Shown here: in pieces, positions 17,202-22,990 of the stretch
Layout of the letters: every line of letters begins with the position of its first letter
How positions within the stretch are numbered: the first letter of the stretch is position 1
Assembly: GCA_028722515.1 (NCBI GenBank)
Contig: JAQYGS010000003.1
Coordinates: forward strand, 1 to 33,611
Source of the DNA: Clostridia bacterium
GTDB lineage: Bacteria; Bacillota; Clostridia; Lachnospirales; Lachnospiraceae
Reading direction: 5' to 3'
Length of the DNA stretch: 33,611 nucleotides
Translations under genes and position numbers: made by a program
The notes under the pieces: model-generated
What the model saw: only the letters and a program-made list of their open reading frames with translations
What the model was told of the DNA's origin: nothing
Databases searched by the model: none

Positions 17202-18749
17202 TTGGAGAAACAGCATACTTATGTCGCCATTGATCTGAAATCCTTCTACGCTTCCGTAGAATGTGCCGACCGGAATCTGGATCCACTGACTACCAATCTT
17301 GTTGTGGCAGATGAGTCACGTACAGCGAAAACAATCTGTCTGGCAGTTTCCCCTTCTCTGAAATCCTGGGGAATTCCAGGCAGGCCCAGGCTTTTTGAAG
17401 TAATACAGAAAGTCCGGGAGATCAATGCGATCCGCCGGGCAGATGCTCCTGGAGGCAGATTCTCCTCTTCTTCTTTTGATGCTTTGGCACTCAGGTCTGA
17501 CCCGTCCCTGAAACTCTCCTATATTACTGCTGTTCCACGTATGGCACGGTATATGAAAGTCTCTTCATCCATCTATGAGATTTATATGAAATATATAGCA
17601 CCTGAGGATATAGTTGTCTACAGCATTGATGAGGTTTTCATCGATGTGACACATTACCTTGAGCTTTATCATATGACTGCCCGTGAACTGACTATGACTA
17701 TGATCCGTGAAGTTCTGTATACAACAGGGATCACTGCTACGGCAGGTATCGGTACCAACCTTTATCTTGCCAAGATTGCCATGGATATCGTTGCCAAGCA
17801 TGTGCCTGCGGACCGTGACGGTGTACGGATTGCCCAGCTTGATGAACACACCTACAGAGAACAGCTTTGGACACATCAGCCATTAACTGATTTCTGGCGT
17901 GTTGGAAGGGGATATGCAGACAGATTACAGAAGAACGGAATTTTTACCATGGGGGATATTGCAAGGTGTTCTCTGGGCGGTCCTAATGATTATCATAATG
18001 AAGATCTGCTTTTCCGGTTATTTGGAATAAATGCCGAACTGCTCATAGACCATGCATGGGGATGGGAACCCACTACCATTGAAGACATCCGCAATTACCG
18101 TCCACGTTCCAATTCTCTTGGATCCGGTCAGGTATTACAGGAACCTTATGATTATAATAAGACCAAACTGGTAGTAAAAGAAATGACAGATCTTCTGGTA
18201 CTGGATCTTGTTGATAAAGGTCTTGTTACCAATCAGATCGTACTTACCATAGGATATGATGCCACAAATGTAACCAGTGGCAATTACCAGGGAGCTGTTA
18301 CCACTGACAGATACGGGCGCAGGATTCCTATGCATTCCCACGGAACCGGCAATCTTACAGGTTATACCAGCTCCACCAGACTGATCATGGAATGTATGAT
18401 GAACCTTTTTGAACGTATCGCCGACAGGAATCTTCTTGTCCGCAGAATCACCATTTCAGCCAATAATGTAATACCTGAGACAGACATTCCTGACGAAGAC
18501 TGTTATGAGCAGCTTTCTCTTTTTACAGATTACGATGCACTGGAAAAAAAGAAAGAAAAAGAAAAATCTGTTATGGAAAAGGAAAAGAAGCTTCAGAAGG
18601 CAGAATTGGATATTAAGAAGAAGTTTGGAAAAAACGCAATATTAAAGGGAATGAATCTGCAGGAAGGTGCTACAGCAAGGCAGAGAAATGCCCAGGTGGG
18701 CGGCCACAGAGCTGGGAATCCCACGGACGCATCAGGAGATTCTTCATGA
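17202..18749 (+). CDS. Y-family DNA polymerase (UmuC/UvrX-like translesion polymerase)
   Basis: TTG start with AAGGAGG upstream; YVAIDLKSFYASVEC, VVYSIDEVFIDVT, TATAGIGTNLYLAKIAMDIVAKH. Confidence 0.93.
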   Translation: MEKQHTYVAIDLKSFYASVECADRNLDPLTTNLVVADESRTAKTICLAVSPSLKSWGIPGRPRLFEVIQKVREINAIRRADAPGGRFSSSSFDALALRSDPSLKLSYITAVPRMARYMKVSSSIYEIYMKYIAPEDIVVYSIDEVFIDVTHYLELYHMTARELTMTMIREVLYTTGITATAGIGTNLYLAKIAMDIVAKHVPADRDGVRIAQLDEHTYREQLWTHQPLTDFWRVGRGYADRLQKNGIFTMGDIARCSLGGPNDYHNEDLLFRLFGINAELLIDHAWGWEPTTIEDIRNYRPRSNSLGSGQVLQEPYDYNKTKLVVKEMTDLLVLDLVDKGLVTNQIVLTIGYDATNVTSGNYQGAVTTDRYGRRIPMHSHGTGNLTGYTSSTRLIMECMMNLFERIADRNLLVRRITISANNVIPETDIPDEDCYEQLSLFTDYDALEKKKEKEKSVMEKEKKLQKAELDIKKKFGKNAILKGMNLQEGATARQRNAQVGGHRAGNPTDASGDSS

Positions 18750-18769: not shown

Positions 18770-19204
18770 TTACAGATCCATATCACGAAAAATTTCTCCT
18801 TCCAGGCCACATATATCATCCATCCTTATACTCTGCCCTGTGACTGTAACAATGGATCTGGTATATTCGTCCACTTTTCTGATTCTGGCGGTAATTTTTC
18901 TGTATTGGCCCCCGCTTTTTTTCTCATCCGGAACGAAATAAGTAATATCAATCACAGGAAGCTGAGAGATCCTGTCCTCTATAACTTGCAGTTTCATGTC
19001 AAGACAGTTTCTGGCTGTCTCATCCAGATCAGTCCGGGCATCCGTGGTCCTTGCTGTTTCTGAAATCTCCTCCTCATATCCAGACAAAGCCTTAAAAGAA
19101 GCAAACTGAGCAGCACGATCTATTCTGTCCATGCGGACATGTTTTAATTCAAAAGGATACTGTGTATCAATAATATCAGCATAATCTTCTGGTTTCACAG
19201 CCAT
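18770..19204 (-). CDS. YolD-like family protein
   Basis: YADIIDTQYPFELKHVRMDRIDRAAQFASFKALSGYEEEISETARTTD resembles YolD-like proteins; genomic association with a Y-family polymerase. Start at 19204 has better Shine-Dalgarno spacing (GAGAGG). Confidence 0.8.
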   Translation of the reverse strand: MAVKPEDYADIIDTQYPFELKHVRMDRIDRAAQFASFKALSGYEEEISETARTTDARTDLDETARNCLDMKLQVIEDRISQLPVIDITYFVPDEKKSGGQYRKITARIRKVDEYTRSIVTVTGQSIRMDDICGLEGEIFRDMDL

Positions 19205-19231
19205 GGCCATACCTCTCTTTTTCACGTTAAC

Positions 19232-19260
19232 TTGCAAACTGGATTAATTGGAACTATAAT
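19232..19260 (+). promoter_or_regulatory. Sigma-A-type promoter upstream of the structured element and phosphatidyltransferase gene
   Basis: TTGCAA - 17 nt - TATAAT. Confidence 0.6.
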
Positions 19261-19452
19261 AAGATGTTGGGGTCAAAAGATGCCATACGGATTGTTCCGT
19301 GCTTTGCACTCCCACAATCCTGCCCCGAATTCGGATATCGCGGGACTTACGTCCCGCTTTTATCCTCATTTGGGGCGGGTCAACAAGTCATAAAACCACT
19401 TATGTGCAAGCACACAGTGGTTTATGACCTTTTGACCCTGGCATCATAATAA
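19256..19452. repeat. MITE-like / structured palindromic element with terminal inverted repeats and 7-bp flanking direct repeats
   Basis: Flanking ATAATAA at 19256-19262 and 19446-19452; TIR GATGTTGGGGTCAAAAG (19263-19279) vs CTTTTGACCCTGGCATC (19429-19445); internal hairpins 19289-19320, 19322-19376 and 19377-19438. Confidence 0.7.
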
Positions 19453-19480: not shown

Positions 19481-20038
19481 ATGAAGAAAGAACTGTTTTC
19501 AATACCAAATTTAATGGGTTATTTCCGTATACTTATGCTGCCTGTATTTCTTGTATGCTACCACCGGGCAGAAACACCGAAAGATTTCGTATTTACTTTC
19601 CTGATTCTTGGGGTTATTTTCCTGTCTGATGCATTGGATGGGTACGTTGCAAGGAAATATAATATGGTAACAAACTTCGGGAAAATTCTGGATCCGGTAG
19701 CAGATAAGCTGGTTCAGGGCACGCTGGCACTGGCTGTTGCATCCAGACATCCGTTAATGAAAGTATTTTTCCTTGTCTTTATCATAAAAGAAGCCTATAT
19801 GGCTATTATGGGCTTATATCTGATCAAAGCCAAAAGTTCATTGAACGGAGCTCAGTGGTTTGGTAAGATATGCACCGCCGTAATAGACATAGGCGTACTT
19901 ATTTTATTGTTCATACCCCAAATGCCGGAAACCATCAGTAATGCCATAATTATTCTCATGCTTATAACAGAACTGTTCGTAACTATAAAATATATAATAT
20001 TCCATGTAAATATCATCAGGAAAAAATCTGAGCTTTAA
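19481..20038 (+). CDS. CDP-alcohol phosphatidyltransferase (PgsA-like)
   Basis: LSDALDGYVARKYNMVTNFGKILDPVADKL matches the CDP-OH-P motif DGxxAR-x8-G-x3-D-x3-D; TM-rich. Confidence 0.92.
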   Translation: MKKELFSIPNLMGYFRILMLPVFLVCYHRAETPKDFVFTFLILGVIFLSDALDGYVARKYNMVTNFGKILDPVADKLVQGTLALAVASRHPLMKVFFLVFIIKEAYMAIMGLYLIKAKSSLNGAQWFGKICTAVIDIGVLILLFIPQMPETISNAIIILMLITELFVTIKYIIFHVNIIRKKSEL

Positions 20039-22712: not shown

Positions 22713-22809
22713 CGACATTCCCATACATACACGGTCTTTGTGTAACAAACGAAATTATATAAGCACTATGTATTGTTATGAGAATAAAGGTCATGTATTC
22801 CGCAGACCA

Positions 22810-22990
22810 TGAATTCCACGCCAAGGCAGTTCTCCTGACTTTGTTCAACGTCTCTCTTCCTTCCCGGTTACCCAGTGGTTTTAAGAGAAACTCCCATACA
22901 CAGTGACGGTATCGTTCCGGATTCTCACCGGATTCTCTTTTGCACGCCATTATAATGACGTAACCTTTGCGTTATAACTATTGCACATAT
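22810..22990 (-). ncRNA. Cobalamin riboswitch aptamer
   Basis: Minus strand: AAGAGAATCCGGTGAGAATCCGGAACGATACCGTCACTGTG...CCACTGGGTAACCGGGAAGG...GTCAGGAGAACTGCC (B12 box-like). Confidence 0.92.

Follow-up and report, generated by a model that had tools for sequence, protein, structure and literature searches.

Is a short, hairpin-rich intergenic segment with inverted repeats at its ends and a perfect direct repeat on its flanks a piece of mobile DNA, a structured RNA, or both at once? This question is raised by a 183-bp segment in the window, i.e. the whole stretch of 33,611 nucleotides of a Lachnospiraceae genome that was analysed here. The initial annotation, made from the letters alone, had suggested either a mobile element of the non-autonomous kind or a structured RNA that transposition had dispersed, and the two halves of this suggestion hold together in the light of target-site duplications (TSDs), terminal inverted repeats (TIRs), an empty site, a transposase and covariation. 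Very probably, the segment is a non-autonomous element (MITE) with a structured-RNA interior, which would be moved in trans by an IS1182-like DDE transposase.

Table 1. Features of the element and its immediate surroundings, in positions of the window.
Feature	Position	Strand	Basis or remark
Promoter-like TTGCAA-17-TATAAT	19232..19260	+	abuts insertion
TSD, left copy, ATAATAA	19256..19262	.	sequence; 7-bp TSDs at 40/110 copies
Complete non-autonomous element (MITE), 183 bp	19263..19445	-	strand given is the RNA-sense strand
TIR, GATGTTGGGGTCAAAAG	19263..19279	+	17/17 identical to end of same-genome IS1182-like transposon
Other TIR, CTTTTGACCCTGGCATC (GATGCCAGGGTCAAAAG on minus)	19429..19445	-	doubles as RNA P1/P2 strand
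TSD, right copy, ATAATAA	19446..19452	.	sequence
Clostridiales-1 RNA (RF01699), four-way junction	19278..19446	-	141.9 bits
Closing helix P1, 5' strand (pairs with 19278-19284)	19440..19446	-	overlaps right TIR; model alignment, covariation
Hairpin P2, conserved GCUUGC (CUUG tetraloop)	19379..19436	-	
Hairpin P3, conserved AUGAG/CGAAU internal loop	19323..19375	-	
Hairpin P4, conserved GGGAG/CGGA internal loop	19289..19320	-	
CDP-alcohol phosphatidyltransferase (PgsA-like) gene, downstream	19481..20038	+	

Ends and interior of the window element

As initially described, ATAATAA can be read directly at both ends of the element, the 17-nt TIRs are complementary at 14 of 17 positions, and there is no ORF of note inside (none of at least 80 aa). 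The TIR is imperfect because the mismatching CCA lies at the 5' end of the RNA, with its two Cs within helix P1. The additional statement that the ends pair at all 17 positions when G:U pairs are counted is true for the plus strand, but on the Rfam strand the three positions are A-C mismatches, and there the CCA side of the end largely pairs with an inner GGCATC, closing the cloverleaf. The three proposed internal hairpins are all present, but the middle one, GCCCCGAATTCGGATATC-GCGGGAC-TTAC-GTCCCGC-TTTTATCCTCATTTGGGGC, has internal mismatches. The cloverleaf is a four-way junction, and the biologically meaningful strand for this inner fold is the minus strand. The fold energy of the element corresponds to z = -11.7 (plus) and -9.9 (minus) relative to dinucleotide shuffles, and these scores together with a minus-strand match to Rfam family RF01699 (Clostridiales-1 RNA; E = 6e-33, curated cut-off 48 bits) make a chance fold untenable.

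The match covers the model in full (positions 1-166), which makes the window copy a member of RF01699 with the same strand-specific fold and the same hosts (Clostridiales, human gut). The family is typed 'Gene; sRNA' in Rfam and was originally listed as a probable RNA that is not cis-regulatory, occurring in Clostridiales and the human gut (Weinberg et al., 2010; PMC2864571). Two differences from this description emerged. The Rfam boundary stops at 19278, whereas the genomic unit runs on at the RNA 3' end, by 15-35 nt among the copies, to the second TIR. Moreover, the genomic unit is mobile, while a term search of the main text of the discovery paper (PMC2864571) found no mention of mobility; judging from their titles and abstracts, the papers naming the family appear to add nothing on its function.

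Dispersal and insertion sites

Confinement to this one locus, which the initial annotation had linked with a cis leader, did not occur, since BLAST returned 45 matches of the element in its own 2.4-Mb genome. Many of them lie at contig ends, as expected of a repeat that breaks assemblies. RF01699 itself gave 31 matches in this genome, the maximum among the 41 genomes compared (this one and its relatives), of which 17 have matches above the cut-off. In a sample with almost one genome per genus, 130 of 299 Lachnospiraceae genomes carry the family, and all four genomes with matches in a class-wide sample (n=118) are Lachnospiraceae; the sole exception seen outside is G052, from another family of the same order. 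The assignment of the host family to Lachnospiraceae follows from named relatives of the candidate partner transposase described below. Among viral contigs, nine exact 17-mer matches were found, which we estimate to be roughly chance level for a collection of this size; human-faecal 'phage' records with the element were left out, as they are unannotated linear scaffolds marked UNVERIFIED.

Of the 110 copies (31 genomes), 40 lie between exact 7-bp direct repeats, with the element ending at consistent positions. Defined in this way, the ends of the element lie at RNA position +1 and, on the other side, past the Rfam 3' boundary. More than half of the copies are without an exact TSD (decay, recombination or assembly error), and TIR identity, 14/17 in the window copy, ranges over 10-15/17 in others. 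The target consensus is ATWWTAT, i.e. A(.87) T(.93) W W T(.70) A(.96) T(.87), from 46 sites with at least 6/7 identity, a few of which may be chance. We also considered a targeting of -10 boxes, which was rejected because the logo of these sites is just ATWWTAT with no -35 upstream. Short derivatives of approximately 66-76 bp carry TSDs of their own, e.g. tttgaat and attacaa. Beside the one-ended copies L063, L064 and L066, a search for a linked transposase found only truncated element ends near ordinary genes.

An insertion can be traced at copy L008 (G000:C180), for which an empty counterpart exists in the same assembly (L266, G000:C199), 93% identical across the junction and with one copy of the target; orthologous sites without the element were also found in five sister species (L267-L271). 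The presence of two 93%-identical versions of one locus in the MAG of the window implies that the bin is probably a mixture of two strains or species. The empty site that the initial annotation had called for thus exists for L008, but for the window copy an orthologous empty site could not be demonstrated among 60 species of the genus, because the intergenic DNA is too diverged and the left neighbour is not syntenic. A copy in G237 had no empty-site match in one other genome of its genus.

The copies are intergenic in 100 of 105 cases. The downstream gene is co-oriented with the RNA in 66 of 103 copies (p = 0.0055; no bias for the upstream gene), counts that derive from crude ORF calls and from copies that are not independent within one genome. 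No conserved promoter was found ahead of the RNA among the copies, since the flanks of different copies diverge immediately outside the GAT end; hence the RNA is probably made by read-through.

These data bear on the possibility of an ordinary trans-acting sRNA gene family, multi-copy by duplication, with TSD-like flanks that arose by chance. The Rfam type would be in line with it, as would the strong covariation and the conserved loops (see below), but we consider it very improbable in view of exact 7-bp repeats at fixed ends, unrelated intergenic sites without a conserved upstream promoter, the empty site, and ends that are identical to those of an IS. As a complete account it is refuted by the TSDs and the empty site; at most, such a gene could have been the origin of the captured RNA. 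As judged from these genome comparisons, the Clostridiales-1 RNA owes its spread to transposition, unlike an ordinary small-RNA gene with a fixed location.

Some arrangements deserve separate mention. In L149 (G330; 1001-1635), a full RF01699 copy and, behind it, three partial ones spaced 159 bp apart form a tandem array, and head-to-tail dimers also occur in G017, G019, G002 and G052. By eye, one copy with an exact TSD (L095, G008:C3) sits between an apparent T-box leader terminator and a thrS-like gene, and another (L210, G002:C8) interrupts a cluster of tRNA genes, apparently separating tRNA-Leu from tRNA-Lys.

Constraint on the RNA

The covariation across copies that the initial annotation had proposed to look for was analysed with a covariance model built from 16 copies, because the plain MAFFT and RNAalifold alignment lost hairpin P2. 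In the resulting alignment of 126 matches, all 59 of 59 pairs change on both sides. Covariation scored 0.42, compared to 0.145 for shuffled and at most 0.08 for slid controls, and none of 500 shuffles reached this value; the 16-copy sample in an alignment not fitted to the structure gave the same picture. Furthermore, unpaired bases are conserved in the tetraloop of P2 and the internal loops of P3 and P4 (Table 1). Compared with its complement, the Rfam strand forms the more stable fold in 104 of 110 copies and 30 of 31 genomes. On this strand, GU/(GU+AC) amounts to 0.63 (95% 0.54-0.73; 41 non-redundant rows), a modest excess obtained from a structure-fitted alignment (A2) that leans towards the fold. 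Both the preference for G-U over A-C and the stability of the Rfam strand are signs of selection on the RNA of that strand. The interior of the element is a real structured RNA under RNA-level constraint.

Structured DNA ends are known from other mobile elements such as IS200/IS605 and integron cassettes. With this precedent, and given that the DNA strand folds too, the fold could matter as single-stranded DNA or cruciform in transposition, the RNA being irrelevant. Such a role is unlikely, however, because the candidate partner enzyme is of the DDE type, which goes with TIRs and TSDs here, and not of the Y1/HUH type, because the strand asymmetries in stability and G-U pairs favour the RNA of the Rfam strand, and because a CUUG tetraloop and tandem-GA-like loops are conserved.

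Most genera have a small palindrome, GGGGTCAAAATACCTTTTGACCCC (e.g. L142 and L179), filling the stretch from the RNA 3' end to the TIR; it is absent from the genome of the window. A plus-strand hairpin that resembles a terminator (19340-19357) was rejected, because other genera do not share its T-run in alignments inspected by eye.

A candidate partner transposase and the proposed mode of movement

A transposase with matching TIRs, the remaining check suggested at the outset, was located in the same genome by a TIR pattern search. On contig C115, a 17/17 copy of the left TIR lies 106 bp before a 520-aa transposase ORF; the contig ends before the right TIR of the IS, which was therefore not seen there. 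The candidate partner L097 has the same TIR as the element (17/17), and its relatives L108, L110, L112 and L119 have both ends. The protein has Pfam domains DUF772 and DDE_Tnp_1_6 above their cut-offs, and D157, D350 and E477 are invariant in an alignment of nine sequences, features shared with the IS1182 family. Its best NCBIfam model is IS1182 (NF033551), with 132.3 bits over residues 45-516, which is below the equivalog cut-off of 270 and marks a divergent Lachnospiraceae branch instead of a certified IS1182 equivalog. Copies of the IS that have a TIR at either end and are flanked by 7-bp TSDs occur in sister species (L112, ataatat; L108, attttac; L110, attgaat, with a broken reading frame) and in more distant relatives (L125, atataat; L130, ataggaa). 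L119, 1843 bp long, is a complete IS bounded on either side by TIR GATGTTGGGGTCAAAA, without matching TSD.

Three TIR subtypes are identical between IS and MITE, although not always in the same genome: GATGTTGGGGTCAAAAG in IS L097/L119/L121/L122 and the window MITE, GATGTGGGTGTCAAAAG in IS L109 and L132 and the MITE of G087, and GATTAGGGTGTCAAAAG in IS L278/L279 and the MITE of G009. Beyond the TIR, the IS continues with CCCCTCTATAGTACC and the element with ATGCCATACGG, without similarity. Hence, the MITE is not a deletion derivative. An internally deleted IS (type I MITE) would explain the common terminal 17 nt, but it is extremely improbable given that the interior is an independent covarying RNA and that the similarity does not go beyond the TIR. 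Instead, the restriction of the similarity to the terminal approximately 17 nt suggests that the RNA domain at some point came between IS ends, and the element looks like a structured RNA captured in this way. The two ends of the element resemble the IS end to different degrees, 15.2/17 for the RNA-3' end and 13.1/17 for the RNA-5' end (p = 0.0014; 18 genomes), and in several genera the RNA-3' end is still 17/17. We attribute this to the bases of the RNA-5' end, which also build P1/P2 and drifted, while the RNA-3' end lies outside the RNA domain.

The IS1182-like transposase is thus the probable mobilising partner of the MITE. In 20 MITE-bearing genomes, its group gave no match in 11, weak partial matches in three, degraded or partial genes in four and an intact gene in two. 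This scarcity may reflect MAG gaps, loss of the partner or the involvement of another transposase. That the MITE is moved by a different enzyme with similar ends, the IS1182-like gene being only a cousin, would agree with the lack of an intact gene in most MITE-rich genomes searched, but is improbable given the 17/17 TIR identity within one genome, the exact matches of three TIR subtypes, and the same TSD length and AT-rich sites in IS and MITE.

In the mechanism that we propose, the element, which has no transposase of its own, would have its ends recognised by a DDE transposase of the IS1182-like type, whose gene lies at another place in the genome. The enzyme would cut out or copy the element and insert it at AT-rich ATWWTAT sites, making the 7-bp duplications. 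The RNA-5' end would act as transposon end and as P1/P2 helix strand at once. Most likely, the fold is kept because copies sit in transcribed intergenic leaders or spacers, where a compact fold would make insertions tolerable in transcripts or act in cis. A more far-reaching idea is that a functional, loop-conserved RNA module was made mobile by IS1182-type ends and distributed through a bacterial family as a ready-made leader or spacer that acts in cis, transposon end and closing helices being written in the same bases; this is a tentative proposal, possible but not probable at present.

For the window copy, the promoter-like site upstream of the PgsA-like gene probably represents the former promoter of this downstream gene. 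As it abuts the insertion, the element would sit in the 5' leader of the gene, in antisense orientation.

Other bacterial MITEs (Correia/NEMIS, RUP, ERIC) are likewise short and ORF-less, with TIRs, a TSD, dispersed intergenic copies and TIRs common to an IS. In contrast to them, the interior of the present element is a multi-branched RNA with compensatory changes across many genera and not a simple hairpin or IS remnant. By analogy only, eukaryotic SINEs also spread a structured RNA with the enzyme of an autonomous element in trans, but they do so by retrotransposition, whereas the present element would move as DNA through a DDE enzyme and its TIRs. We found no literature tying IS1182 to the Clostridiales-1 RNA or to MITEs in Lachnospiraceae. 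A known RNA family is re-read here as a MITE that probably has an IS as its partner. RF01699, for which the literature searched has offered no explanation since 2010, gains a spread mechanism, true boundaries and a probable mobilising enzyme. More generally, multi-copy candidate sRNA families can be transposons, which calls for caution. The element is also a natural case in which one sequence must serve a DNA transposase and an RNA fold together, and it raises the question why a non-autonomous element keeps an elaborate RNA across many genera.

Regarding the wider neighbourhood, a Y-family DNA polymerase with IMS domains is encoded at 17202-18749 (+) of the window, followed on the opposite strand by a small ORF (18770-19237) without Pfam match, for which YolD-like is a guess. 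A cobalamin riboswitch aptamer (RF00174, 90 bits) lies at 22808-22983 (-).
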